From positions 1-27,365 of IMG/VR virus record IMGVR_UViG_3300005826_000134: a stretch of DNA of 27,365 nt; one strand, 5' to 3'. This document shows positions 1 through 26,897 of the stretch, in pieces. Origin of the DNA: a virus. The first letter of the stretch is position 1, and each line of letters opens with the position of its first letter. The notes under the pieces were generated by a model that made no database searches, was not told the origin of the DNA, and saw nothing but the letters and a program-made list of their open reading frames with translations. A program made the position numbers and the translations under genes.

Positions 1-114
1 GACCAAGCCATCGGGCCGGCGGCGGCGCTCATCCAGCTTGACCCCGAGGTCCCGCCCGAGGCACGCGACCTTGGCAGGAGCATCCGGCGAATCACCGAGG
101 GCCATGATGCGTGA
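1..114 (+). CDS. C-terminal end of an upstream protein, possibly a MoxR-type AAA+ ATPase (partial)
   Basis: The frame starting at base 1 is open until TGA at 112-114 and gives 37 residues ending IRRITEGHDA. The start lies outside the window. The fragment is too short to show Walker motifs. The AAA+ guess rests on context only: VWA proteins with a metallopeptidase-like N-terminus, like the gene at 331, are very often encoded just after a MoxR-type AAA+ ATPase. Its end overlaps the start of the first ASX gene (104) by 11 bases, so the two are probably translated together. Coding status is fairly safe; the function is inference. Confidence 0.45.
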   Translation, partial: DQAIGPAAALIQLDPEVPPEARDLGRSIRRITEGHDA

Positions 115-334
115 ATACTTGGCATCGTCTGCCTCCAGGGCATCCGATGAGTCCGATGCGTCGCACTCATCCGCTGCGTCCAAGGCATCCGATGATTCCT
201 GGGCGTCCAGTGCGTCCTGGACGTCCGATGAGACCAGGGCGGCATGGGCCTCATGGGCATCCATAGCTTACCCGGCATCCATAGCATCCATAGCACCATG
301 GGTCTCCGTAGCTGCCATGGAGGATAGGCCATGA
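104..334 (+). CDS. ASX tripeptide-repeat small protein 1
   Basis: This is a 76-residue protein made almost wholly of Ala-Ser-X tripeptides (for example WASSASW, RASDESDAS, WASWAS) after a short leader MMREYLASSAS. It has no signal peptide and no Cys. I chose the ATG at 104 because it overlaps the upstream gene's end and matches the paralogues, which start M-x-R/F-x-E/D. The last five codons (MEDRP) read ATGGAGGATAGGCC and contain the ribosome binding site of the next gene, whose ATG overlaps the TGA here. Function unknown. It sits between a possible AAA+ gene and a VWA gene, so it may belong to the same machine. Confidence 0.7.
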   Translation: MMREYLASSASRASDESDASHSSAASKASDDSWASSASWTSDETRAAWASWASIAYPASIASIAPWVSVAAMEDRP

Positions 335-1431
335 TCGACAGAGTCATGTTGGCGGCGAGGGTCCTGCGGCCCTACTACGGGCGGGCGATCGCCGCTCTGC
401 GACCCATCGCGGTGGACATGCCGGACGACTCTCCAGGAATGTCCATCGATGCCTCGTGGCGGCTCTACTGCTCGGCGAGGCACATGGCGGACTGGACCGA
501 CATGGAGTCCGCCGCGCTGGTCGGCCACATGGTCGAGCACCTGCTACACCGGCACCCAGGGCGCCGAGGACTCAGGCTGCCGTCGCCATGGGCGCGTGCG
601 TGCGACTGCGCGCTCGCCGACGACGACGATCAGATCCCGTCCTGGGTCCTCCAGCCTGGTGACTACGACCTCGACGACGGCCGGATCGAGGAGGAATACT
701 ACCCCGCCATCGCCGACATGGAGGAGCTCCCCGAGGGGTGGACCTGCGGATCTGGTGCCGGCGGGCCATCCTATCAGTGGGAACTTGCGTCCAGCCCGGA
801 TGACATGACCCAGGAGGCCATCGACTCGATCATCGTCATGACGGCCAAGGACACCGTCGACCGGCAGCGCAGGCGCGGCGACGTGCCCGCGGGAGTCATG
901 GTCTGGGCCGATGAGGAGGCAGCGGAAACGCCTCCCGTAGACTGGCGCAGGCTGCTATCCGCCGCCGTTGGGGCGACGGCCGGCGACGGGAACAAGGCGG
1001 TCGACCGCTCCAGGCTGCACCGCCGGTATCGGCACGGGTGGCCGATCGCCCCTGGATCGAGGAGCCAGAGCCCTCGAGTCTGCATCGTGGCGGATACGTC
1101 TGGCTCCATGGCGATGGACGGTGATACGGTGCTCGGCGTCGTCGCTGACCTGATGCGACGCTACGAGTGCGATATCTACGCGTGCGACGTCGATCCGGTG
1201 AAGGTCCGGCACGGACGCTACATAGGCGGAGGCGGCACGGACATGCGAGCCGGTATCGCCGCTGCCGAGAAGACAAGCCCGTCTGCGATCATCGTGATCA
1301 CGGACGGGGTGACACCATGGCCAGATGCGGCGCCGTCCGCACCTACCATCGCCGTGATGGTAGGCGAATCGGCGCCACCAGCCCCTGAGTGGGCGACAGT
1401 GATCGAGATAGGAGACAACGACGATGCTTGA
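331..1431 (+). CDS. VWA-domain protein with degenerate metallopeptidase-like N-terminus (DUF2201-like)
   Basis: This 366-residue protein looks like the family that joins a putative metallopeptidase domain (about residues 1-200) to a VWA-like domain (about 245-366). The VWA metal-ion-dependent adhesion site is complete: D255-T-S257-G-S259, T303 in GGGGTDM, and D325 in ITDG. The N-terminal zinc motif is altered: H66-M-V-E-H70-x4-H75 keeps the three His of HExxHxxxxH, but the catalytic Glu is Met, so peptidase activity is doubtful while metal binding may remain. A GGAGG site sits 7 nt before the ATG. Such proteins usually work with MoxR AAA+ ATPases as metal-dependent chaperone or remodelling pairs. 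The position among ASX genes suggests that ASX proteins could be clients or partners; that is inference. Confidence 0.85.
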   Translation: MIDRVMLAARVLRPYYGRAIAALRPIAVDMPDDSPGMSIDASWRLYCSARHMADWTDMESAALVGHMVEHLLHRHPGRRGLRLPSPWARACDCALADDDDQIPSWVLQPGDYDLDDGRIEEEYYPAIADMEELPEGWTCGSGAGGPSYQWELASSPDDMTQEAIDSIIVMTAKDTVDRQRRRGDVPAGVMVWADEEAAETPPVDWRRLLSAAVGATAGDGNKAVDRSRLHRRYRHGWPIAPGSRSQSPRVCIVADTSGSMAMDGDTVLGVVADLMRRYECDIYACDVDPVKVRHGRYIGGGGTDMRAGIAAAEKTSPSAIIVITDGVTPWPDAAPSAPTIAVMVGESAPPAPEWATVIEIGDNDDA

Positions 1432-1753
1432 GATCGGCAATACCTACATGTGGCACACGATGCCGGGCTGGCTCCTCGCGGGCCGCTACGCTGGACCCGT
1501 GGAGGGCCGACCGGACTGGGGAGTCTTCGACGGCGGCATCTACATCGTGGCCGTGAAGAAAACGGCGCACGATGCGGCGGCAGCGAAGACGGCGGCGCAG
1601 CTCCGTTCCGCGATCACCAGCCACCGGACCATCCCCGACGGGATGATGGTGAACCTGGGGTTCGTGACCCACTTCGTGCCGTGCGCCAGGGACATGAGCC
1701 CGCTCCACGGCGCCGACGACGCCAACGCCATCAGCGAGGCCGCTGGTGGCTAA
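1424..1753 (+). CDS. Hypothetical protein, unknown family
   Basis: This 109-residue protein starts MLEIGNTYMWHTMPGW. AGGAG lies 9 nt upstream and the gene overlaps the VWA gene by 8 bases. It has an N-terminal part rich in aromatic residues and glycine that looks like a small beta fold (WGVFDGGIYIVAVKK), an Ala-rich helix (residues about 48-62), and a C-terminal VTHFVPCARDM segment. No transmembrane helix or known motif is seen. It overlaps the following ASX gene by 8 bases. I do not recognise it. Its fixed place between the VWA gene and the ASX array suggests the same pathway. Confidence 0.7.
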   Translation: MLEIGNTYMWHTMPGWLLAGRYAGPVEGRPDWGVFDGGIYIVAVKKTAHDAAAAKTAAQLRSAITSHRTIPDGMMVNLGFVTHFVPCARDMSPLHGADDANAISEAAGG

Positions 1754-2042
1754 GGATGCTTCCAAGGCGTCCAAGGCATCGGAGTTCACTGGTGCGGCCA
1801 ATGCGTCGCACCATGCCTCATTGGTGTCCATGGCGTCCTACTGGAGTCTGGAGGCCCACGGGTACAACATCCCCGATCCCAAGTGGGCTGCCCGTGCTTC
1901 CTATGCGTCCGACGAGATATGGTGGCGGCATTCCGGTGTTTCCATGGCGTCCGATGAGTCCTCGGCATCCGAAGCGTCCATGGCGTCCAAGACATCAAAT
2001 GCGTCCTTGGCTGCCGATGCGATGCCTTGGCGTGACCCATGA
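1746..2042 (+). CDS. ASX tripeptide-repeat small protein 2
   Basis: This 98-residue protein begins at GTG 1746 inside the end of the preceding gene (GAGG site just upstream). It opens with KASKASEF, has a non-repeat centre with aromatic and charged residues (EAHGYNIPDPKWAARASYAS, DEIWWRHSG), then a dense Ala-Ser-X stretch. The non-repeat centre differs from the other paralogues, so members may share the scaffold but present different surfaces. Its stop overlaps the next start (ATGA, 2039-2042). Function unknown. Confidence 0.65.
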   Translation: MAKDASKASKASEFTGAANASHHASLVSMASYWSLEAHGYNIPDPKWAARASYASDEIWWRHSGVSMASDESSASEASMASKTSNASLAADAMPWRDP

Positions 2043-2360
2043 ACTACCGATGCGCTGATGAGGCATCCATGGCTTCCGACATCTCCCGGGCGTCCTGGGC
2101 GTCCTGGGCGTCCGCGATGGCCTGGGCGTCCGATTCCTCCGATGCGTCCATGGCGGCCTGGGCGTCCGATGCGTCCATGGCGGACTGGGCGTCCGATGCG
2201 TCCATGGCGGACTGGGCGTCCGAGGCATCCCCACTTTTCGGCGCCTGCGCTGCATCAGCGGCCCACTTCGGTGAGTCGTTTCGCTGTCTGTGACCTGGCC
2301 CATGATTCATCCAAGGCATCCGATGCGGCCTGGGCGTCCATCATCGAGGTCGACCAATGA
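2039..2360 (+). pseudogene. ASX tripeptide-repeat protein 3, split by a one-base frameshift
   Basis: From ATG 2039 the frame gives an ASX protein that stops at TGA 2291-2293 after 84 residues. The missing tail is present in another frame up to TGA 2358-2360 and matches paralogues 4 and 5: CDLAHDSSKASDAAWAS here against VDLAHESSMASD and IDMAHDPSRASDA. Removing one T from the run at 2279-2281 restores a 106-residue protein with GESF-AVCDLAHDSS across the join. The repaired end overlaps the next ATG (2357) in the usual ATGA manner, which the short frame does not. Causes could be a real inactivating indel, a sequencing error, or a +1 shift at TTT-C. The gene also holds three 27-bp tandem units at 2144-2224. 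Confidence 0.75.
2144..2224 (+). repeat. Three tandem 27-bp units in ASX gene 3
   Basis: Units lie at 2144-2170, 2171-2197 and 2198-2224. Units 2 and 3 differ only at the last base; unit 1 has GCC in place of GAC. Each encodes the nine residues A-S-M-A-(D/A)-W-A-S-(D/E). Because 27 is a multiple of three, gain or loss of units would lengthen or shorten the protein in frame. Confidence 0.9.
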
Positions 2361-2641
2361 TGAGGTTCAGCGAACGCTACGCGCACATGGCGTCCATGGC
2401 GTCCATGGCGTCCGATGTCGACAGTGCGTCCAACGCATCTAGGTATGCTGCCTGGGCTTCCGATGCAGCACCTTATTTCGGCGCCGGCACGGCATCAACG
2501 GCGAACGTCTGTGGGTCGTGGCGTATGGTGGACCTGGCCCATGAGTCATCCATGGCATCCGATGTGACCAGGGCATCCAGCGCATCCATGGCATCCTGCG
2601 CCCAGGTCAAGCTCGGTAGCTTCTGGGAGCTCGGCCCATGA
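2357..2641 (+). CDS. ASX tripeptide-repeat small protein 4
   Basis: This 94-residue protein starts MMRFSERYAHMASMASMAS. It has three blocks: an Ala-Ser-X head, a middle with FGAGTASTA...GSWRMVDLAHESS, and a tail AQVKLGSFWELGP. It is the clearest paralogue of protein 5; the RF.ER.AHMASMAS head, the GSW/GESW..D.AH core and the VKL.S.WEL tail are shared. The tail codons include GGGAG ahead of the next ATG, which overlaps this stop at 2638-2641. No signal or membrane segment. Function unknown. Confidence 0.75.
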   Translation: MMRFSERYAHMASMASMASDVDSASNASRYAAWASDAAPYFGAGTASTANVCGSWRMVDLAHESSMASDVTRASSASMASCAQVKLGSFWELGP

Positions 2642-2925
2642 GGTTCAACGAACGCGACGCGCACATGGCGTCCATGGCGTCCGATGCTACCCATGCGTCC
2701 AGGGCGTCCGAGTTTCCAGAGGGCCGAGATGCCGCCTCTGCTTCCGATTCGTCCTGGCGCTTCGCTGCATCCATGGCATCAGCGGCCCACTTCGGTGAGT
2801 CGTGGGGCATGATAGACATGGCTCATGACCCTTCCAGGGCATCCGATGCGGCCAGGGTCTCCTGGGCGTCCATGGCCTCCGCTGCTCACGTCAAGCTCAG
2901 TAGCTACTGGGAACTCGACACATGA
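2638..2925 (+). CDS. ASX tripeptide-repeat small protein 5
   Basis: This 95-residue paralogue of protein 4 has head MRFNERDAHMASMASDA, centre SAAHFGESWGMIDMAHDPS and tail AHVKLSSYWELDT. The two genes are back to back with ATGA overlaps, which implies tandem duplication followed by divergence outside the repeats. The regular three-residue period puts small residues at two of every three positions. This could suit a tightly packed helix bundle or a beta-solenoid; the sequence alone does not decide. Confidence 0.75.
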   Translation: MRFNERDAHMASMASDATHASRASEFPEGRDAASASDSSWRFAASMASAAHFGESWGMIDMAHDPSRASDAARVSWASMASAAHVKLSSYWELDT

Positions 2926-3164
2926 TCTTCTCTGCTGATGATGCGTCCTCAGCATCCAATGAGTCCAGTGCTTCCTGGGCGTCACGGGCTTCCGATACGC
3001 CCGTCGATTCGTACTGGGTACCATGGGCGTCCTGGGCATCCTTGTCGCCGTCGTCCAGGACATCCGACGGGAAGTTCGCTGATATGGCTTCAACGTCTTG
3101 CCCCTATACACGGGCTAGTGCCGCCTCCAGCGCCTTCAGAGGACCGTTCGGTAACCTACCATGA
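2922..3164 (+). CDS. ASX tripeptide-repeat small protein 6 (divergent)
   Basis: This 80-residue protein starts MIFSADDASSASNESSAS at an ATG overlapping the previous TGA. The first half is Ala-Ser-X (WASRASD, WASWAS); the second half loses the pattern and ends in a Gly/Pro-rich tail. It is the last clear member of the plus-strand array. The ribosome binding site is weak, so it probably depends on coupling to gene 5. Function unknown. Confidence 0.65.
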   Translation: MIFSADDASSASNESSASWASRASDTPVDSYWVPWASWASLSPSSRTSDGKFADMASTSCPYTRASAASSAFRGPFGNLP

Positions 3165-3379
3165 CTCTGACCCGTTCTCAGATGCCCCCCCTCCCCCCAT
3201 CCCCAGGTCCGGGTTTCACCTCGGAGAGCTGGAGCGGAGTTGCGGAGAGGGGTACGCCCCCGGGCCTTCGTTTATCCTCGCGCCCGAGCTTAGCCCCCGC
3301 GAGCCGCCCCTACCCTGGGTGTGTCACTCTCTCCCAAGGTCGCAGGGACTCCGATCACCCTCGTTCTCGATCTGGGTGA
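3161..3379 (+). CDS. Doubtful small ORF after the ASX array
   Basis: A 72-codon frame starts at an ATG overlapping the TGA of ASX gene 6 (ATGA). That is the only support. The product is Pro/Ser/Arg-rich, lacks the Ala-Ser-X pattern and has no known motif. The region may instead be an untranslated 3' leader or part of a structured RNA that continues to 3650. Confidence 0.25.
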   Translation: MTLTRSQMPPLPPSPGPGFTSESWSGVAERGTPPGLRLSSRPSLAPASRPYPGCVTLSQGRRDSDHPRSRSG

Positions 3380-3438
3380 GTCCATGTCGGTGCAGCAGCC
3401 GACGGACCGTCCGCTAGGGTAGTTGCCTGCGGGGGTTC

Positions 3439-3527
3439 GTAGCCGATGTCATCTGCACGCCTGGATCGTACCACGGCCCTGCGGCATGGGCACAAAAAAG
3501 CCACCGCGGTGTGCAGACATCGGCTAC
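3439..3527. repeat. Long inverted repeat, possible structured RNA
   Basis: The left arm 3439-3458 (GTAGCCGATGTC-ATC-TGCAC) pairs with the right arm 3511-3527 over 17 bp if the three bases ATC bulge out; the outer 12 bp are perfect. The loop is about 52 nt. The right arm lies inside the loop of the terminator-like stem at 3500-3563, so the two structures cannot form together except as a pseudoknot. Confidence 0.6.
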
Positions 3528-3563
3528 GCCCTTGGGGAGGAAGCAGAGAAGTCACGCGGTGGC
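3494..3563 (-). terminator. Terminator-like stem with large loop (second, weaker)
   Basis: On the minus strand GCCACCGCG (3563-3555) pairs perfectly with CGCGGTGGC (3508-3500) and is followed by six T (3499-3494). The loop of about 46 nt is long for a simple terminator and contains one arm of the 3439-3527 inverted repeat. It lies downstream of the stronger terminator and may be a backup or part of a regulatory RNA. Confidence 0.4.
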
Positions 3564-3610
3564 CGGGATCAGTGGGACCCCGTCAAGACACCATACACCG
3601 AACAGAGGCC

Positions 3611-3646
3611 AAAAAAAAGCCCCCCCGGGGGATGAGGCCGGGGGGG
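3611..3646 (-). terminator. Strong intrinsic terminator of the minus-strand early operon
   Basis: On the minus strand a 9-bp GC stem, CCCCCCCGG (3646-3638) with CCGGGGGGG (3628-3620), has a 9-nt loop and is followed by C then eight T (3618-3611). This is a textbook rho-independent shape. It ends the operon that starts at the promoter near 8510 and closes with the ASX genes. Confidence 0.85.
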
Positions 3647-3703
3647 CAGGGCGGGCAAAAGGAGACGACCCATTCTACCCTCATGGCTGGCCTCTTGCCA
3701 AGC

Positions 3704-3766
3704 CTACAGCCCCCACCTCGCTGGCGGCACCCAGGAAGCCTCGGATGCCGAGCAGTCACGCTTCAT
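3704..3766 (-). pseudogene. Truncated ASX gene (20 codons)
   Basis: ATG 3766 overlaps the stop of ASX gene 7 (ATGA). It reads MKRDCSASEASWVPPARWGL and then TAG. The first nine residues copy the start of ASX gene 7 (MKRDCWAFEAS), which identifies it as a decayed or cut-back duplicate at the operon end, about 60 bp before the terminator stem. It could still be translated as a short peptide. Confidence 0.5.
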
Positions 3767-3981
3767 GGCCTCTCCATGGATGCCCAGGATGACATGGAGT
3801 CATAGAAGGCCTCGGAGGCATCAGATACATCGGACGCATCGGAGGCCCATGCCGCGTTGCACTCATCCGATGCTTCGGACGCCTCGCATGACTCGAACTC
3901 ATCGGACGCATCGGACGCTCTGGACGCCCAGGACGCATCGGAGGAATCGGAAGCCTCGAAGGCCCAGCAGTCACGCTTCAT
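3763..3981 (-). CDS. ASX tripeptide-repeat small protein 7
   Basis: This 72-residue protein starts MKRDCWAFEASDSSDAS and is Ala-Ser-X with many Asp/Glu (DASDEFESCEASEASDECNAAWAS). It is more acidic than the plus-strand members and contains three Cys. It ends SSWASMERP, where ATGGAGAGGCC again supplies the binding site for the next ATG. Its own ATG is preceded by GAGGATAGGCC, encoded by the REDRP end of ASX gene 8. Translation is clearly coupled along the series. Function unknown. Confidence 0.7.
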   Translation of the reverse strand: MKRDCWAFEASDSSDASWASRASDASDEFESCEASEASDECNAAWASDASDVSDASEAFYDSMSSWASMERP

Positions 3982-4229
3982 GGCCTATCCTCTCGGGATG
4001 CCATGGATGCCCAGGAAGCCCCGGTCCCCTCGGAATCCCAGGACGCCCAGGATGCCCAGCACGATGGCTTACCGGACGCCAAGGACGGATCGGTAGCCCA
4101 ATACTCCTCGGACTCGCTGGCCGTGGACGCACAGTGCGCTTCGGTCTCATCGGACGCATCGGATGCCCTGGACGCCCAGTGCGCTTCGGTCTCATCGGAT
4201 GCCCTGGACGCCCAGTAGTATGGCCTCAC
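3978..4229 (-). CDS. ASX tripeptide-repeat small protein 8
   Basis: This 83-residue protein starts at GTG 4229, which overlaps the TGA of the nuclease gene (GTGA), with GGAGG four bases upstream inside the nuclease gene's last codons. It contains the duplicated block DETEAH(W/C)AS, from direct DNA repeats at 4132-4154 and 4177-4199, and a centre with GKPSC. It ends MASREDRP, whose codons form the binding site of gene 7. It is carried in the replication/recombination operon rather than with the AAA+/VWA pair, so the family is not tied to that pair alone. Confidence 0.7.
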   Translation of the reverse strand: MRPYYWASRASDETEAHWASRASDASDETEAHCASTASESEEYWATDPSLASGKPSCWASWASWDSEGTGASWASMASREDRP

Positions 4230-4540
4230 AGCCCCTCCTCGCCCTTCCCTTGGTACAGCCCGAAACCCAGCGCCCGCAACACGTCGTCCTCTGTCTTCAC
4301 GACCCGAACAGATCCCTTCCAGGTAGACACGAACCTGATCTGGTCCTTCGTCAGCTCCTGGTCCCTGGTCGGCACCGTCGGGTCCTTCACCTCGAGGAGC
4401 AGATTCCGACCCTTGTACCCCACCAGCAGGTCCGGGACGCCCTTCCCCACGCTCGACAGGCTCACCACCGACGCGCCCAGCTTCACCAGGAGGCTGACCA
4501 GCGTGCTCTGGTTCCCGTCTACCCTCGCGGCTCGCCTCAT
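4226..4540 (-). CDS. VRR-NUC-like small nuclease (PD-(D/E)XK fold)
   Basis: This 104-residue protein has the pattern of phage VRR-type nucleases: a basic N-terminal helix, G33-x-G-V-P-D37, the E50-V-K52 catalytic core on a beta-strand (RNLLLEVKD), and Q67 in the following helix (LTKDQIRF). Such proteins cut branched or flapped DNA and often replace Holliday-junction resolvases in phages. The ATG 4540 overlaps the stop of the HhH gene. A relic of its own 5' end survives at 5037-5069, which shows that the gene once followed the gene at 5066 directly. Recombination or replication repair is the likely role. Confidence 0.8.
   Translation of the reverse strand: MRRAARVDGNQSTLVSLLVKLGASVVSLSSVGKGVPDLLVGYKGRNLLLEVKDPTVPTRDQELTKDQIRFVSTWKGSVRVVKTEDDVLRALGFGLYQGKGEEGL
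4508..4539. repeat. 32-bp perfect direct repeat, copy 1
   Basis: It covers the first codons of the nuclease gene and is identical to 5037-5068. The two copies are 529 bp apart and flank the HhH gene. Confidence 0.95.
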
Positions 4541-9328: not shown

Positions 9329-9499
9329 ATGTCTGAAACCGTCAATCTCGAACTCACCTACACCGAGGCGAAGCTCGTCGCCGAACTCCTCCGCAGGACC
9401 TACAATGTCGGCATGAAGGACGACGCAAGCTGGTCGTCCCAGCGGAAGTCCGAGGTCGCACTCACCATCATGGAGCGCATGAAAAACGGGGAGGAGTGA
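9329..9499 (+). CDS. Small hypothetical protein
   Basis: This 56-residue protein is MSETVNLELTYTEAKLVAELLRRTY... with AAGGAGG eight bases upstream of ATG 9329. It is predicted to be two helices with a short loop (LTYTEAKLVAELL; SEVALTIMERMKNG). The spacing resembles small phage proteins of unknown role. Its TGA overlaps the next ATG (TGATG). Confidence 0.65.
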   Translation: MSETVNLELTYTEAKLVAELLRRTYNVGMKDDASWSSQRKSEVALTIMERMKNGEE

Positions 9500-11229
9500 T
9501 GGAACGCATCGAGCGGGCTTGTTGCTGGGTGGTCGTTCTCTGGCTGGTCCTCGCTGTCATCGTGAGCTACGCGGGGGGTCAGGTCCAGCCTGGGCAATCC
9601 ATCCAGGCCGCCATCGACGCCAACCCTACGGGGACGGTGACGATCGCGGCCGGGACATACGCCGAGACCCTCTACATCACGACAGGGGTCACGATCCAGG
9701 GTGCAGGGGCGCTCGAGACCATCCTCACGCCAACCCCTGGGGCCAACGCGGCGGTCATCACGCTCGAGGACGTCCCTGGAGGGGCGGTCATTCGCGACAT
9801 CCAGGTGACCGGGGGCATGCACACCGCTGGATTCCCCTACGGCGGCGGCATCTACGTCCACCGATCGCCGGTCGTCGCCGGCAGCGGGGTCGGCGTCACC
9901 GTGCAGCGGTGCGTGATCAGGGGCAACTCGGCCACCTACGGCGGCGGCGTCGGGGTGGCATCATCCAACGTGCTACTTGATCACTGCACCGTGGCCGGGA
10001 ACTCCTCGGGCAATTCCGCGGTCAGGTACTCCTCGTCGTCCGGCGGGTCCGAGATCCGCGACTCGATCATCTGGGGGAACTCGACCCCCATCGCGGTGAC
10101 CTCGTCCTCGGCCATCGTCGTGGCCAACTCCTGCCTCCAGGGTTCCGGCGTCAGCGGCGGATCGTGGACCGGGTCCTGGATATCTGCTGACCCGCTCCTT
10201 GACCCCTCGACCTACCATCTGGCCTCTGGGAGCCCCGCTGCTGGCATGGGCGCCTACCCTGACCCTGTGATCGCCCCGAGCAAGGTGGCGGTCGCCACGG
10301 GTCTGACGGCGCCCCTCCTGGTGACCCATGACCCCCAGGACCCGGGGTGGATCTACATCGTCCAGCAGGACGGGCTGATCCTCCGGCAGGAGCTCTCCGG
10401 CGGCGCCCCTGCCCTGTGGAAGGATCACTCGGCCCTGACGGCCCGGGCCGGCGAACGCGGCCTCCTGGGGCTGGCGTTCGGCCCTGACGGCTACATCATC
10501 AACTACACGTCCGTCCTCGACGGGTCCACCCACGTCGAGTTCCGGCCTCGAGACGGCCACGATGACGAGGTGACGACTCTCCTGCATGTCCAGCAGCCGC
10601 AGGGGAATCACAACGGCGGGTGGGTCGGGTTCGGCCCGGACGGGCTGCTCTACATAGCCATGGGGGACGGGGGCGGGATCTTCAACCCCGGCAACACGGC
10701 CCAGGACCCCGCCAGTCTGCTCGGGAAGGTCCTGAGGATGAAGGCCCGGGCGGGGGAGACGCCCGAGATCTGGCTCATGGGGCTGCGGAACCCGTGGCGC
10801 TGCTCCTGGGACGGGGCAGACCTCCTCATCGGCGACGTGGGGCAGTTCGAGCGCGAGGAGATGGACCGCGTCCCGATCTGGGCCGCCGCCGGCACGAACC
10901 TCGGCTGGAACTGCCTGGAGGGCACGCGCCCGACAGGGGTCTGCATCGCCGCCGGCACCTGGGCCCCGGAGATGGAGTACGATCACTCCGTCGGGGTCTC
11001 GATCATCGGTGGCTACGTCTACCGCGGTCAGGCGATTCCCGAACTCACGGGGCAGTACGTTTTCGGCGACTACGTTGGGCGCGTGTTCCGCTGGGACGGG
11101 TCGGCCATCACCGAAATGGCGAGCCTCCGAGGCGGGATCAGCGGTCTCTCGTCAATGGGTATCGACGAGAACGGGGAAGTCTACATCTGCTCCGCGAGCA
11201 ACGGCGCAGTCTACAGGGTCACACCATGA
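9499..11229 (+). CDS. Membrane-anchored or secreted beta-helix / sugar-dehydrogenase-like beta-propeller fusion
   Basis: This 576-residue protein has a hydrophobic segment at residues 9-26 (signal or anchor), then a right-handed beta-helix domain (about 30-255) that starts VQPGQSIQAAIDANPTGTV and closes with WISADPLLDPSTYHLASGSPAAG. The second domain (about 262-576) matches soluble aldose/glucose-sorbosone dehydrogenase-like propellers (YliI/HHIP type): GERGLLGLAFGPDG, GNHNGGWVGFGPDGLLYIAMGDGG, AQDPASLLGKVLRM, EIWLMGLRNPWRCSWD, DLLIGDVGQFEREEMDRV, AGTNLGWNCLEG. That family uses PQQ and calcium, but many members have no proven activity. Beta-helix domains bind or cut polysaccharide. GGAGG precedes ATG 9499. 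Such a fusion is unexpected in a phage genome and may act on the host surface. Confidence 0.8.
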   Translation: MERIERACCWVVVLWLVLAVIVSYAGGQVQPGQSIQAAIDANPTGTVTIAAGTYAETLYITTGVTIQGAGALETILTPTPGANAAVITLEDVPGGAVIRDIQVTGGMHTAGFPYGGGIYVHRSPVVAGSGVGVTVQRCVIRGNSATYGGGVGVASSNVLLDHCTVAGNSSGNSAVRYSSSSGGSEIRDSIIWGNSTPIAVTSSSAIVVANSCLQGSGVSGGSWTGSWISADPLLDPSTYHLASGSPAAGMGAYPDPVIAPSKVAVATGLTAPLLVTHDPQDPGWIYIVQQDGLILRQELSGGAPALWKDHSALTARAGERGLLGLAFGPDGYIINYTSVLDGSTHVEFRPRDGHDDEVTTLLHVQQPQGNHNGGWVGFGPDGLLYIAMGDGGGIFNPGNTAQDPASLLGKVLRMKARAGETPEIWLMGLRNPWRCSWDGADLLIGDVGQFEREEMDRVPIWAAAGTNLGWNCLEGTRPTGVCIAAGTWAPEMEYDHSVGVSIIGGYVYRGQAIPELTGQYVFGDYVGRVFRWDGSAITEMASLRGGISGLSSMGIDENGEVYICSASNGAVYRVTP

Positions 11230-12944: not shown

Positions 12945-13174
12945 ACCGCTACCCGAAAGTCGTCCTGCCGTGGGAAGAGTGCCCAGACGAACCCGTCAGC
13001 CAAAGCACCAAGATCCTCCCGCGGTGTGACGGCTGCCGGGCCCTCCTGGACAGCGTCTACGCTGGCGCCGGCAACGCGGAGTGCCTCTCCTGCCTCATGC
13101 GCAAGGGGGAGTCCCCCAAGCCGCCGACGTGGTGGAGGCGCAGGGTCATCGCGGCGCAGAAACGCGAGTCCTGA
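12941..13174 (+). CDS. Small zinc-finger-like protein at the end of the plus-strand cassette
   Basis: This 77-residue protein has CDGC and CLSC pairs 22 residues apart (ILPRCDGCRALLDSVY...AECLSCLMRKG), giving a four-Cys zinc site, and a basic C-terminal tail with WWRRRVIAAQKRES. ATG overlaps the previous stop (ATGA). It ends two bases before the stop of the convergent minus-strand gene. Possible nucleic-acid binding; unknown role. Confidence 0.65.
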   Translation: MNRYPKVVLPWEECPDEPVSQSTKILPRCDGCRALLDSVYAGAGNAECLSCLMRKGESPKPPTWWRRRVIAAQKRES

Positions 13175-13176
13175 AC

Positions 13177-13407
13177 TCACTTCGGACGGGCGATGGCGCC
13201 ACGGACCTCCTCGAAGAGCTTATCGATGTTCCGCTCATTCCGAGCGACGTCCTTCGACGTCGATACGACCTGTTCGCCGACCTTCTGGATCTCGAACTTG
13301 ATCGCAACGAGGAGGGTGGTCATAGAGATCACGCCAGCGGCCAGCATCAGCATGAACGGCAACGACAGCTTGACCTCAGTCTTCTCGGTCAAAGTCACTG
13401 AGGCCAT
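13177..13407 (-). CDS. Small single-helix membrane protein, holin or spanin candidate
   Basis: From ATG 13407 this is a 76-residue protein with one transmembrane segment (LPFMLMLAAGVISMTTLLVAI, about residues 16-36) and a charged helical C-terminal part (KVGEQVVSTSKDVARNERNIDKLFEEVR) that may form a coiled coil. That shape (short N-terminus, one membrane helix, periplasmic or cytoplasmic coil) fits a type III-like holin or an inner-membrane spanin. It is the last gene of the minus-strand structural operon, next to another membrane protein. AAAGGA lies 10 bases upstream of the start. Confidence 0.55.
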   Translation of the reverse strand: MASVTLTEKTEVKLSLPFMLMLAAGVISMTTLLVAIKFEIQKVGEQVVSTSKDVARNERNIDKLFEEVRGAIARPK

Positions 13408-13442
13408 GCTGGAAGTGTCCTTTAGGGGGCAGTCTTGGCTGG

Positions 13443-13646
13443 TCACTTCGGCCCTGTCTTCGCGGCCTCCTTGCCTGCGTCTGCCCACCCTTGGCCAAGG
13501 ATATAAGCCACAATCGGCGCCATGATAACGGCCAGGGCCTCGACGTCGAGGTCCAGCCCGTACCTTCCAGCGAAGCCAGCCACCACGCCGCACAGGGCCG
13601 CGATCGCCTTTTTCGACCCTGCCATCGCCTTGATCGCATCCCACAT
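13443..13646 (-). CDS. Phage holin-like membrane protein
   Basis: This 67-residue protein has two hydrophobic segments (AIAALCGVVAGFAG, about 13-27; ALAVIMAPIVAYILGQGWADAG, about 37-58) with GLDLD between them and a basic end GKEAAKTGPK. Small proteins with SKK-F/A-x-AAL..V and AYILGQG.AD.GKE are common in phage lysis regions and usually annotated as holins or holin-like. GGAGG is 8 bases before ATG 13646, and the start overlaps the upstream stop (TGATG). Confidence 0.65.
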   Translation of the reverse strand: MWDAIKAMAGSKKAIAALCGVVAGFAGRYGLDLDVEALAVIMAPIVAYILGQGWADAGKEAAKTGPK

Positions 13647-13885
13647 CACAGGAGCCTCCCCAGGGCGAACTGGCCAGCCCGAAGGACAAGGTCGAGCATC
13701 GCCACGGCGCGGGACTTGGCGTCCGCCCGCTCCATGACGCCTCGCATCTTGGACTCCAGGGCGACGATCTCGTTCTCTGAGAGCGAGGACCCAATGAGCC
13801 TCGCCAGCGTGGACGGGTCGGTCGTCGACAGGTCAGGACGGAAAGCCTCAGGCTCCGACATCACATCTTCCCAGTTGGTCGGCAT
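13646..13885 (-). CDS. Small hypothetical helical protein in the lysis cluster
   Basis: This 79-residue soluble helical protein starts MPTNWEDVMSEPEAFRPDL, with a helix VALESKMRGVMERADAKSRAVAMLDLVLR. No signal or membrane helix. ATG 13885 overlaps the preceding stop (TGATG), and GTG 13888 is a weaker choice. Function unknown. Confidence 0.6.
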   Translation of the reverse strand: MPTNWEDVMSEPEAFRPDLSTTDPSTLARLIGSSLSENEIVALESKMRGVMERADAKSRAVAMLDLVLRAGQFALGRLL

Positions 13886-14229
13886 CACTCGTCCCCCCGT
13901 GAAGAGAGACGGTCCCAGACCTGCCCGCCGACAGTCTCCAGCCTCTGGTACAGGGCCTCGTAGTCGACTTCGCCGAGCTTCCTGATGGCCATGTCCTGGG
14001 CCTCAGATAGCCTTCGGTAGTTCGACACCGCTGACCCGATCCGGCTCTTCAGGATGCCGCGCTTCTCGGCATCGGGGACGGTTGAGGCGATGGCGTCGAA
14101 CGCAGACGCAAGTCCGATGAACTCCTGGGCTCTGGCCTGCGACACCTCGAGCGTGTCCGTGACGTCCTGCTGACTGACCGACGAACAGCCGGCCAGCAGG
14201 ATCATGGCCATCATGGGAATGGTCTTCAC
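13885..14229 (-). CDS. Predicted lipoprotein, o-spanin candidate
   Basis: The GTG start at 14229 has GGGAGG five bases upstream. The 114-residue product opens with a short lipoprotein signal MKTIPMMAMILLAGC, lipobox L-L-A-G-C15, and is helical after it, with Gln/Arg-rich stretches. A lipoprotein in a phage lysis cluster next to membrane proteins suggests an outer-membrane spanin, which would fuse the outer and inner membranes at the end of lysis. It is longer than most Rz1 proteins and not Pro-rich, so other roles (exclusion lipoprotein) stay open. Confidence 0.65.
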   Translation of the reverse strand: MKTIPMMAMILLAGCSSVSQQDVTDTLEVSQARAQEFIGLASAFDAIASTVPDAEKRGILKSRIGSAVSNYRRLSEAQDMAIRKLGEVDYEALYQRLETVGGQVWDRLSSRGDE

Positions 14230-14245
14230 TTCTTCCTCCCTTCGA

Positions 14246-14953
14246 TCACGGGGTGAGGTCGCCCATCCAGATGGCCCGGAGGAACCCGACCCACGTCACC
14301 GCATCGGCCATGGTGTAGCCAAACCCCTCGTCGATGGCCTTGGTGAAGTAGAGTTCCAGGTCCACCGCCGAAGCGGTCGTATTCTCTACGATGGCTGTCG
14401 AGGCGAGCGTCATGGCATCGTTGATCCATGTAACCGTACAGGCTGCTGGAGGCGTGGACACTGAGGTCACAGCCGTGACGTGGGCGCTCCCTTGGTAGCC
14501 TGCCCCTGTGTCCGTGTTTGGTGTCCCGTCCACGTTGCAGAGCCCGAGCACTGCCTGGGGAGGAACGGTGGTCGTCGGCGTGAAGTCTGGGACGAACAGC
14601 TTCTGCCACTGAACGAGGACCCTGGTGTACGCCGGGATGATCAGCTTGTTGTTGGCCGCGTCCGCAGTGAGCACCGTCCCAGCGTCGGGGTCGCCAGCCA
14701 CCGCCTTGGACATGGTGTTGTTCGATGCGAACTCAGCGATGGCCGCGGTCCCGTAGACGTAGGTGTGAGTGGACGAGACCCCGCCACCAGTGAAGTCGCT
14801 CCTGATCTCCGCGAAGTTGTCGGACTGCGTCCCCAGCAGCTTCGACAGCGTAGCCAGCTTCCCATCGTTCCCGTCGCTTGCGTCAACGATGAACGCCCAG
14901 TCGCTGGTTGTCGGGTTGACGGCGCTGACGTCTCCGACGAATGTGCTCGGCAT
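14246..14953 (-). CDS. Hypothetical virion-associated protein
   Basis: This 235-residue protein starts MPSTFVGDVSAVNPTTSDWAFIVDASDG and is rich in Thr, Ala and Val with predicted beta structure. It has an AIIPAYTRVLVQWQKLFVP-like stretch in the middle (about 105-125) and a C-terminal helix GFGYTMADAVTWVGFLRAIW. No enzyme motif. It follows the large tail protein within two bases and is probably a tail or fibre accessory protein. No family recognised. Confidence 0.55.
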   Translation of the reverse strand: MPSTFVGDVSAVNPTTSDWAFIVDASDGNDGKLATLSKLLGTQSDNFAEIRSDFTGGGVSSTHTYVYGTAAIAEFASNNTMSKAVAGDPDAGTVLTADAANNKLIIPAYTRVLVQWQKLFVPDFTPTTTVPPQAVLGLCNVDGTPNTDTGAGYQGSAHVTAVTSVSTPPAACTVTWINDAMTLASTAIVENTTASAVDLELYFTKAIDEGFGYTMADAVTWVGFLRAIWMGDLTP

Positions 14954-24798: not shown

Positions 24799-25291
24799 TC
24801 GGCCACCTCCTCTCGTAGACCACGGCCACAGGCTCCCACCCGGTCCGCTCTAACTGTGCGGCCATGTCACGGTTATGATACAGGACCACCGTCTGCAAGC
24901 CACTCAGATCGTGCTTCCTCATCACCGACTTCATCCTGCGGACCAGTGGAGGGCCTGCCCCTGACCCTGGCTGTGCGTAGAAGTGCTGAACGGTCACGTC
25001 CGTCCTGTGGCCGTATCCGGCGACGTGGCCCTCTCTGAAGGTCAGGAGGCCCACGGGCCCACCTTCTTCCGTCTCGGCCAGCAGGACCACCGTGGAGGGA
25101 CTGATGACGCAGTCCAGGGTCGCCCGGTACATCTCGAGCGCGTAGGTGCCCGACCAGAACCTCGGAGGGTTCGTCTGCATCTCCACCGTGGCCATGGCCA
25201 TCCGCATGGCCCACACCTTGTGGATGTCCGCCGGCCCAGCCTCGCGGACGACGAGCTTGGAGACCTTCTCGGCTTCAGCTTGTTCGGTCAT
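24791..25291 (-). CDS. GNAT-fold acetyltransferase-like protein
   Basis: This 166-residue protein has the GNAT pattern: VVREAGPADIHKVWAM at the start, a strand VVLLAETEEGGPVGLLTFREG, then DVTVQHFYAQPGSGAGPPLVRRMKSVMRK, where the V-x-x-x-Y/F-xx-P-x-x-G-x-G-x-x-L segment is motif A for acetyl-CoA (Q-x-x-G-x-G/A equivalent: QPGSGAG), and ending TVVLYHNRDMAAQLERTGWEPVAVVYERRW. Podoviruses often have a GNAT-fold protein next to the internal core genes (T7 gp13 is known to have this fold), so a structural role is possible besides enzyme activity. Confidence 0.75.
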   Translation of the reverse strand: MTEQAEAEKVSKLVVREAGPADIHKVWAMRMAMATVEMQTNPPRFWSGTYALEMYRATLDCVISPSTVVLLAETEEGGPVGLLTFREGHVAGYGHRTDVTVQHFYAQPGSGAGPPLVRRMKSVMRKHDLSGLQTVVLYHNRDMAAQLERTGWEPVAVVYERRWPNE

Positions 25292-26897
25292 CGAGGATTT
25301 CCATGTTCTCCGACACTTCGTGCTGAAGTCGCACGACGTGTTTCTTCAGGTTCTCCAGCCACCAGACCAGCTTTGCAAGCTCCCTTGGAGGCGCCCCGAT
25401 CTGGATCTCCGAGATGGGGACGAGCTCTTCGATCCCAGCTTCCGCGAGGCCGGCGGACGAGGACCCTGGCGACGTCGATGCCGCGGTCCCCACAGGGTTC
25501 CCTGCCGTCCCTGTCCCGGCGGACTCCGAACTCGGTGACGTCGAGGCCCCCGTGGCCGAGATCGCCGAGGAGACCGTCCCGGTCCCGGCAGACTCAGACC
25601 CTGGAGATGTGGAGGTCGCGGTCCCGTAGGAGGTGACGACCCCTGTTCCCGTCGACTCCGACCCGGGCGACGTGGAGGCCCCTGTCGCCGAGATCGAGGT
25701 CACCCCTACGCCGGCAGACTCCGATCCGGGCGACGTGGACGCTCCCGTCCCGTAGGACGTGATGACGCCCGTCCCTGCCGACTCCGAGCCGGGGGATGTC
25801 GAGGCACCCGTCGCTGAGGTCGTGGTCACCCCGATGCCGGCAGACTCCGACCCAGGGGACGTCGAGGCCGCCGTCCCGTAGGACGTGATGACGCCCGTCG
25901 CCGAGGACTCTGACCCGGGAGACGTCGATGCCCCTGTCCCGTAGGAGGTGATGACCCCGGTCGCAGAAGACTCGGACCCAGGCGAGGTGGACGCCGCCGT
26001 CCCTGTCGTGCCCGACGATGCGGTGCTCGCCTCGTCGTAGCAGCCGCAATCGTGAGTCGTTGTCCGCGTCGTCCCGATGATGTCGGTCGACGGGATACCC
26101 GTAGCCGTGGCGAAGTCGATCGCTGCGGACCCAGACTTCAACGTGAAGTCGCCGGCCGACGGGTCGGTCCACAGATCGGTGTCTACCTCGCTGTGGATGT
26201 TGTTCGTCCCGTTGGCGGTCGTGTCTCCAGAGATGTTGTAGTCGCCGGTCGGAGATCCCGCGAAATCGCTGGTGCCAGAGTCGGTGACGACGCAGTTCGT
26301 GTTGTTGCGGGTGCCAGCGATGCCGCTCACGCGGGCGTTGTAGACGGTGCAGTTGAACGCCGTTGACGTCCCGAACCCCGGGAAATTGATCCCGTTGGCG
26401 AACCCATTTGTGCCAGCAGCAACACGATAGAACAGGCAGTTGACGACCGTGTACGAGTTGCCCGCATTGATGCCGTGGGCTGAGCCAGTTCCAGAGCAGT
26501 TGTCGATCACCGTGATGCTGTCGACGGTGCTCGTCGAGGCCGCGGCTATCGCATGGTTCGAGCCGTTTCCTGAATACTCTGCGCAGAACCCGACGATCCT
26601 GGCATAGACCTCGGCCAACTGGATACACGATGAGTTACCAGAACCCGTGACCTTGGCGCCTGTATCAGCCGCTGGGTCGTACCTCGCCCCAGTGTCGAAC
26701 GTCAGCTCTCGGTATCTGGTCGAGTCGGTGGTCGCGCCGAAGATGACAACGGCCTCTGCGAAGTCCACCGCACGCATCTTTCCGCGGCAGAGTTCGTCGG
26801 CTGTCGTCAGCGCGTATCCTGTATCCGCCTCCCACCCTGCGATCGTGCTCCAGTCCGGGCTTGTTCCTCCGATCGTCGTTTCAAGGACAGTCGGCAT
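25275..26897 (-). CDS. Beta-helix virion protein with tandem 21-residue repeats
   Basis: This 540-residue protein starts MPTVLETTIGGTSPDWSTIAGWE. Residues about 60-280 form a right-handed beta-helix with Asn/Cys/Gly turns (NCVVTDSGTSDF, DYNISGDTTANG) and close with SGSAAIDFATATGIPSTDIIG, the same kind of end module as in the plus-strand propeller fusion. Residues about 290-490 hold nine repeats of STSPGSESAGTG plus a short variable strand. The C-terminus (AKLVWWLENLKKHVVRLQHEVSENMEIL) is a helix that may trimerise or attach to the virion. It overlaps the GNAT start by 17 bases. A fibre or head-decoration role is likely. Confidence 0.65.
   Translation of the reverse strand: MPTVLETTIGGTSPDWSTIAGWEADTGYALTTADELCRGKMRAVDFAEAVVIFGATTDSTRYRELTFDTGARYDPAADTGAKVTGSGNSSCIQLAEVYARIVGFCAEYSGNGSNHAIAAASTSTVDSITVIDNCSGTGSAHGINAGNSYTVVNCLFYRVAAGTNGFANGINFPGFGTSTAFNCTVYNARVSGIAGTRNNTNCVVTDSGTSDFAGSPTGDYNISGDTTANGTNNIHSEVDTDLWTDPSAGDFTLKSGSAAIDFATATGIPSTDIIGTTRTTTHDCGCYDEASTASSGTTGTAASTSPGSESSATGVITSYGTGASTSPGSESSATGVITSYGTAASTSPGSESAGIGVTTTSATGASTSPGSESAGTGVITSYGTGASTSPGSESAGVGVTSISATGASTSPGSESTGTGVVTSYGTATSTSPGSESAGTGTVSSAISATGASTSPSSESAGTGTAGNPVGTAASTSPGSSSAGLAEAGIEELVPISEIQIGAPPRELAKLVWWLENLKKHVVRLQHEVSENMEILDDRTS
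25440..26010 (-). repeat. Nine tandem 63-bp-type repeats in the beta-helix virion gene
   Basis: Each unit encodes about 21 residues beginning (A/T)STSP(G/S)S(E/S)S. Unit 7 is two residues longer and the last unit is cut. In the middle of the tract the variable strand alternates between VITSYGT-like and T(T/S)xSAT-like versions, hinting at a two-unit duplication. Confidence 0.85.

Follow-up and report, generated by a model that had tools for sequence, protein, structure and literature searches.

Ala-Ser-x repeat mini-genes and their association with an AAA+/VWA module in metagenomic phages

Introduction

A virus record of IMG/VR (IMGVR_UViG_3300005826_000134; 27,365 bp, analysed over its full length and called the window below), which is probably a fragment of a larger genome, carries a set of small open reading frames (ORFs) built on the repeated tripeptide Ala-Ser-x (ASx). 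The evidence strongly supports that these ORFs are mini-cistrons that encode proteins and belong to one phage family, that each product is an Ala-Ser-x array of 55-120 residues held mostly in a single register, and that the arrays arose through tandem and dispersed duplication. In most copies the stop or start codon overlaps that of a neighbouring gene, and most tails contain a Shine-Dalgarno (SD)-like stretch for the next gene. One ASx copy lies between the genes of a MoxR-like AAA+ ATPase and a VWA protein, both in the window and in a second virus record, and an AS-rich gene occupies this place in a third. Variation is greatest at x, where aromatic, large or charged residues predominate, and the Ala-Ser frame is kept. 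The AAA+/VWA pair is already known; for the ASx proteins, none of the libraries searched here holds a counterpart. Because distant viruses keep them in the same place beside an ATP-driven machine, the ASx genes are regarded here as a genuine, undescribed family.

Identification and organization of the ASx genes

All ASx ORFs of the original prediction, six on the plus strand and two full plus one truncated on the minus strand, were recovered where it had placed them. The features of this region are listed below.

1-113, plus strand: C-terminus of a MoxR-like AAA+ ATPase; frame 1 reads IGPAAALIQLDPEVPPEARDLGRSIRRITEGHDA followed by a stop, and the gene starts outside the window
104-334, plus strand: ASx gene p1, in the AAA+/VWA slot; ATG start at 104 or 107
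331-1431, plus strand: VWA protein with an N-terminal metallopeptidase-like domain (DUF2201_N + DUF2201; PF09967, 9.6e-10; PF13203, 7.9e-7)
1424-1753, plus strand: 109-amino-acid protein conserved with the AAA+/VWA module; 33% identity to L207:3072-3431 (E 1e-15)
1746-2042, plus strand: ASx gene p2; GTG start
2039-2293, with a tail on to 2360 in another frame, plus strand: ASx gene p3, frameshifted (MAFFT alignment of p3, p4 and p5, and repeats)
2357-2641, plus strand: ASx gene p4 (compared with p5 by substitution rates)
2638-2925, plus strand: ASx gene p5 (paralogue comparison with p4; AlphaFold2 model)
2922-3164, plus strand: ASx gene p6, the final gene of the plus-strand operon (ORF and repeat statistics)
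3620-3632, minus strand: short terminator-like hairpin with a T-run between the convergent operons; weak (1 found vs 0.4 expected in shuffles)
3704-3766, minus strand: truncated ASx gene m3 of 20 residues, MKRDCSASEASWVPPARWGL followed by a stop (read from the sequence; m2-like start context; DNA repeat)
3763-3981, minus strand: ASx gene m2 (ORF and repeat register)
3978-4229, minus strand: ASx gene m1; GTG start, AGGAGG as SD sequence
4226-4540, minus strand: nuclease-like gene directly upstream of m1 (phrog_93 endonuclease, 5.7e-10)

The two operons converge as had been described, and the plus-strand genes do not form one uninterrupted run of ASx genes, p1 being separated from p2 by the VWA gene and the gene of the 109-amino-acid protein. 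Two further features had been missed, namely the frameshift in p3 and the identity of bases 1-113. Since these bases end an AAA+ gene, p1 is placed between the AAA+ and VWA genes. The AAA+ stop overlaps the p1 start, the p1 stop overlaps the VWA start (ATGA), and on the other strand the stop of the nuclease-like gene (4540-4226) overlaps the m1 start. Along the plus-strand module starts overlap or touch the preceding stops, at the p3/p4 junction once the p3 frameshift is read through, and an SD-like 4-6-mer was found by a loose test at 10 of the 11 listed window starts, usually within the tail of the preceding gene.

The ASx genes are true, repeatedly duplicated paralogues, and two sub-families are clear. 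The first comprises p1, m1, m2 and m3, which share common ends, with a tail ...ERP in the full members; m1 also contains an approximate 15-residue internal repeat, WASRASDASDETEAH. The second comprises p3, p4 and p5, which share centre and tail, p4 and p5 being 56% identical. The p3 frame shifts near 2280-2290, and the tail DLAHDSSKASDAAWAS... resumes in another frame to 2360, where it aligns with the paralogues; a true mutation, a programmed shift and an assembly error cannot be told apart here. By inspection, no long hydrophobic segment was seen in any ASx ORF of the window; no signal-peptide program was used.

Repeat register and coding evidence

The Ala-Ser-x pattern is genuine, its register being well beyond chance. 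In each of the eight full ORFs both Ala-Ser dipeptides and identity at a lag of three residues exceeded composition-preserving shuffles (p <= 0.001). One register per gene holds 81% of the Ala-Ser pairs in the window (48% expected), and every pair falls in a single register in p1 (12/12), p3 and m2 (11/11). At the DNA level the pattern GCNTC-N4-GCNTC-N4-GCNTC occurs 11 times, with 0.02 occurrences expected.

Such a repeat could also create the ASx reading as an artefact, the true coding frame lying elsewhere or on the opposite strand (for example as collagen-like or DA-x readings) and ASx being a translated 9-bp repeat. The repeat does leave several frames open, TGG-GCG-TCC reads G-R-P in antisense, many pattern matches elsewhere look like antisense Gly-x-Y genes, and codon use in the ASx frame is aberrant. 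This explanation is nevertheless highly improbable. ATGA and GTGA overlaps tie the ASx frames to the VWA and nuclease genes; between p4 and p5 the ASx frame is the only stop-free one and has the highest dS (synonymous divergence, 0.51) and lowest dN (nonsynonymous divergence, 0.29) among the six frames; and the homologous place in the second virus repeats the tripeptide with unrelated codons. With dN/dS at about 0.57, the p4/p5 comparison, a single pair, provides modest evidence of coding. Glycine makes up 2.8% of ASx residues in the window, and the collagen-type glycine at each third residue was not found.

Distribution in related viruses

With an alignment of p1, m1 and m2 as query a single place was found, at locus L207 of the 55-kb record IMGVR_UViG_3300046788_000307 (G001). 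A search with the VWA proteins of both the window and G001 then retrieved IMGVR_UViG_3300046714_000212 (G002) and IMGVR_UViG_3300037183_000015 (G003). The gene order in G001 is a gene of a 119-amino-acid protein, AAA+, ASx, VWA, five ASx genes, a RuvC-like gene (phrog_159) and a convergent ASx gene. In all, G001 has 14 intact ASx genes at operon junctions, plus partial copies at contig ends; nearly all of the proteins begin with MMVA(T/I)LA, most finish with RLRGG or similar, and 97% of the Ala-Ser pairs lie in one frame. G002 has AAA+, an AS-rich gene of 81 amino acids (L220:5187-5432), VWA and a 109-amino-acid gene, with a tandem series of five coupled AS-rich mini-genes upstream; neither the slot gene nor this series contains a tandem DNA repeat. 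The same gene array had been expected beside AAA+/VWA genes in other phages, and it was found in G001, both in the slot and as a series, and more loosely in G002. Homologues do exist outside the window, and the substitutions do not look like non-coding drift. The family rests on three metagenomic records, two of which hold unmistakable ASx genes, other public sequence mostly not having been searched exhaustively.

The modules themselves are homologous between the window and G001, as the VWA proteins are 36% identical over the full length and the 109- and 119-amino-acid proteins 33% identical. By eye, the product of bases 1-113 resembles the C-terminus of the G001 AAA+ protein, which ends in AAKVLIDATDEVPDEAQDLANRIRSAR and a stop, and proteins like the 109-amino-acid one adjoin VWA at loci L220 and L221. 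The AAA+ proteins of G001 and G002 belong to AAA_5 (PF07728)/phrog_1297 and adjoin the VWA gene; the window holds the C-terminus only. The window VWA protein keeps the metal-ion site motifs DTSGS, GGGGTD and ITDG. Its metallopeptidase domain (PF13203), present by sequence, is probably inactive since the glutamate of HExxH is lost, HMVEH standing where three relatives have HEVEH or HEIEH. PHROGs calls DUF2201 metallopeptidase/VWA proteins 'HNH endonuclease' (phrog_1314), and phage records variously name them 'homing endonuclease' or 'DNA repair ATPase'; these names are apparently misannotations.

In G003 a second undescribed array of small genes was seen in a phage carrying the AAA+/VWA module: the coupled mini-genes at 13028-14300 (L228), which lie apart from the module and differ in sequence from ASx, have related starts (xTAxxxxACNPYAFG-like), several with a tail ECTDMR....

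Codon usage and variation of the x position

In Ala-Ser pairs the window has 95 TCN and 2 AGY serine codons, G001 has none and 238, and G002 has 27 and 18. Since no single silent change turns a TCN codon into an AGY codon, the peptide and not one DNA repeat is the common feature. The x residues of the window are mainly M, W, D, R, E and K, with codons chiefly ending in G or T. In G001, 195 of 200 x residues are Y, R, D, H, C, P, L or F, and G, A, V and T are absent; the third codon base is C in 192 of 200, and the first two bases vary. Among the 161 G001 units with Ala-Ser on either side, changes from GCC-AGC-TAC numbered 13, 9 and 8 at the three Ala bases, 9, 12 and 4 at the Ser bases and 81, 52 and 3 at the x bases (X1, X2 and X3). 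In two clearly recent G001 duplicate pairs, 4 of 5 differences fall at X1, which are few data from a pair search that favours small differences. Variation in the window is more diverged, and Ala third bases vary there too (14/30).

The hypervariability of X1 and X2 in G001 could reflect diversifying selection, residue restriction or a targeted process. It is conceivable, and rather doubtful, that the ASx mini-proteins form a self-diversifying array, in which strong diversifying selection, or targeted mutation without a detected reverse transcriptase, lets every third residue run through Y/D/R/H/C/P/L/F while the scaffold stays constant; the result would be many interaction variants for a MoxR/VWA machine.

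The same data bear on whether the arrays are a proliferating DNA cassette, copying itself into operon junctions while coupling is kept through an SD in the tail and an ATGA overlap, with the peptide as a by-product of the 9-bp repeat that has little function of its own. The G001 copies do lie at scattered junctions with near-identical 5' and 3' ends (CTAAGAGGCGG-ATGATGGTCGCT). Changes at silent positions of the Ala, Ser and x codons in G001 (15/483) are no more frequent than at first and second positions of the Ala and Ser codons (43/644), a pattern that young, homogenised or DNA-constrained arrays would show. Codon use there is sharply unlike that of the rest of the genome (GCC 88% vs 19%; AGC 93% vs 22%), with Ala, Ser and x codons much more uniform. 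Against such a cassette, the window tripeptide uses the other serine codon class and G002 has mixed codons without DNA repeats; the copies keep unbroken reading frames that run in the same direction as their operons; small residues are excluded from x; and the p4/p5 dN/dS is that given above. We consider it unlikely.

An origin of the variation in conflict with the host was also considered: the ASx proteins may be host-takeover or counter-defence mini-proteins, that is, duplicated and fast-diversifying inhibitors or decoys that present differing patterns of bulky residues on an Ala-Ser scaffold to changing host targets. They are small tandem paralogues, x is their variable site (X1 81 and X2 52 changes against 3-13 at other bases), the recent duplicates differ mostly at X1, and the surroundings include Erf, exonuclease, resolvase and regulator genes, with no virion gene adjacent. 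An identical Ala-Ser spacer forming two thirds of each protein would, however, be unusual for target-specific inhibitors, PADLOC and above-threshold Pfam matches were lacking for the ASx proteins tested, and the conserved placement between AAA+ and VWA is left unexplained. Such a role is possible but on the unlikely side.

Two features of G001 were also considered. Its antisense GCTGGCG resembles E. coli Chi, and the window unit does not, so that Chi-like decoy arrays were dismissed; the stretch with the RLRGG ending, which recalls a ubiquitin-like tail, supplies the following gene with an SD-like sequence and is not the same in the window.

Database searches and structure prediction

In agreement with the claim that no function is described, none was found for the ASx family, whose proteins had no match in Pfam, PHROGs, PADLOC or PDB sequences. 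Only sub-threshold composition matches appeared, the best being Plasmodium_HRP (9.3e-7; 29.3 bits vs a cut-off of 45.8). Direct queries of IMG/VR and cultured phages with the VWA protein, a 1406-amino-acid protein or an ASx sequence returned no ASx relative. When W, D or M was set at x in a DNA pattern, the matches listed were mainly antisense Gly-x-Y genes, uniform tandem repeats and chance matches. The G001 9-mer pattern, searched in about 780 genomes of the phyla represented by two loci with the titles Myxococcota and Lysobacter, was found in 19, mostly as uniform tandem repeats; by eye, none listed among the 19 had mixed Y/D/R/H at x. A MASNAS-type tandem repeat with 13 Ala-Ser pairs was seen at a contig end in L045 and L129, the former a Deltaproteobacteria metagenome-assembled genome.

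Relatives of the Erf gene led to other repeat proteins and no ASx. Near an Erf gene, at L189:7611-8312, lies a phage protein with about 17 hexapeptide-type repeats (GGSIKA/DGDIEA) and a match to the FapA beta-solenoid (PF03961); beside an Erf gene, at L190:4396-5184, a phage protein has AAWD/AARA tetrad repeats and no Pfam match. Two more unusual proteins are encoded in the window. The ORF at 9496-11229 combines a right-handed beta-helix part with a glucose/sorbosone dehydrogenase-like domain (PF07995, 8.6e-16), which is unusual in a phage, and that at 25275-26897 has 63/126-nt tandem repeats encoding ASTSPGSESAGTGV-type units and is possibly a tail protein.

AlphaFold2 gave nominally helical models for p5 (3 sequences; predicted local distance difference test (pLDDT) 52) and for a G001 ASx protein (12 sequences; pLDDT 48), with a predicted template modelling score (pTM) of about 0.2 in both; these models are unusable. 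They bear on one more explanation, a structural polymer independent of AAA+/VWA, in which the exact period of three would produce a helix of three residues per turn (polyproline-II or 3-10 like) on which Ala, Ser and x each form a face of their own, bundling into a fibre or coat. The register persists along entire genes, even where they have diverged (100% in p1, p3 and m2; 97% in G001), and an exact period of three would fit three-fold helices better than alpha-helices with 3.6 residues per turn. Against it stand the very low confidence and helical form of the models, the lack of relatives among PDB sequences and the rarity (3%) of the glycine usual in polyglycine-II bundles. We regard this explanation as improbable.

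Proposed role of the ASx proteins

The explanation we tentatively favour, while granting that it may well be wrong, is that the ASx proteins serve the MoxR-like AAA+/VWA chaperone pair as multivalent clients, of polymer or adaptor type. Its support comes from conserved position, from translational coupling and from analogues in the literature, and we infer all steps past co-expression. The ASx proteins would be produced along with the pair whose clients or adaptors they are. On small Ala-Ser spacers, 'stickers' that are bulky or charged and sit exactly three residues apart could mediate self-association or partner binding, the chain being a flexible or three-residues-per-turn polymer that the VWA/AAA+ pair may load, remodel or disassemble in the course of phage assembly or of DNA processing. 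With many copies that differ in x pattern, partners might then be bound with different strengths.

Several observations weigh against this role. More than half of the G001 ASx genes are located away from the AAA+/VWA genes, and no ASx gene lies between the two genes of the pair in G003 or in the cultured phages that were examined. The G002 mini-genes are only modestly enriched (per-gene p from <0.001 to 0.15) and do not align convincingly with ASx, so that their homology rests on position and composition, which suggest it for the G003 mini-genes as well. Net charge is not conserved, the window proteins being acidic and those of G001 mostly basic, and the neighbours in the window are of recombination or nuclease type, not virion genes. 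A confident repetitive fold, which the original prediction had named as support, was obtained in neither AlphaFold2 run; the paralogous family, the lack of a described function and the array beside AAA+/VWA all stood, and the fibre, solenoid, decoy and variable surface that it had suggested are candidate roles only. Finally, the link of ASx to AAA+/VWA, physical or in expression, is one that we infer from sequence.

The ASx proteins, whose entire sequence is a three-residue code, offer a clean case for studying the roles of low-complexity proteins in viruses and a candidate client for the MoxR/VWA machines of phages, few of whose substrates are known. Their genes are also a natural set in which the spread of repeat genes, the maintenance of translational coupling and diversification at single chosen codon positions can be followed.

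Comparison with known systems

Collagen-like Gly-x-Y phage proteins share the three-residue period; ASx proteins lack their glycine at each third residue, and the likeness appears in antisense frames only. The tetrad-repeat protein of L190 is likewise of low complexity, with Trp, Asp and Arg among small residues, but it has period 4, a long non-repeat N-terminal part and a single gene, and no shared family match was found. In the variable regions of diversity-generating retroelements the variable codons are of the NNC form, as are most of those in G001, those of the window ending mainly in G or T. A retroelement of this kind was rejected, as no reverse transcriptase (PF00078) was found in the four records G000-G003, which may be incomplete, and the variable codons are scattered through many genes, over dozens of repeat units.

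Bacterial MoxR-vWA ternary conflict systems (VMAP, iSTAND; PMC7159879) also combine a MoxR-vWA core with a variable third component; their third components are multidomain proteins, and none described is a tripeptide array. The MoxR-vWA pair with a metallopeptidase domain of group 2.2 jumbo phages is proposed to act as a virion-assembly chaperone (PMC7824862); the same phrog_1297 AAA+ and phrog_1314 DUF2201_N-DUF2201 VWA genes flank the first ASx gene. In contrast to that pair, the window VWA protein lacks the HExxH glutamate; ASx genes between or after the pair were not found described, and the cultured phages RM378, Slickus01 and phiFa are without them. A further analogue is the p618-p892-p800 set of Acidianus two-tailed virus (ATV), in which the MoxR protein p618, tied to the development of the tails, has as binding partners the VWA protein (p892) and p800, which forms filaments (PMC4124505). 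The ASx proteins are short and tripeptide-repeat, and p800 is likened to them by role, not by sequence comparison; as a works-like model, the ATV set may nevertheless illustrate how a MoxR ATPase and a VWA protein could act together on a polymer-forming viral protein.

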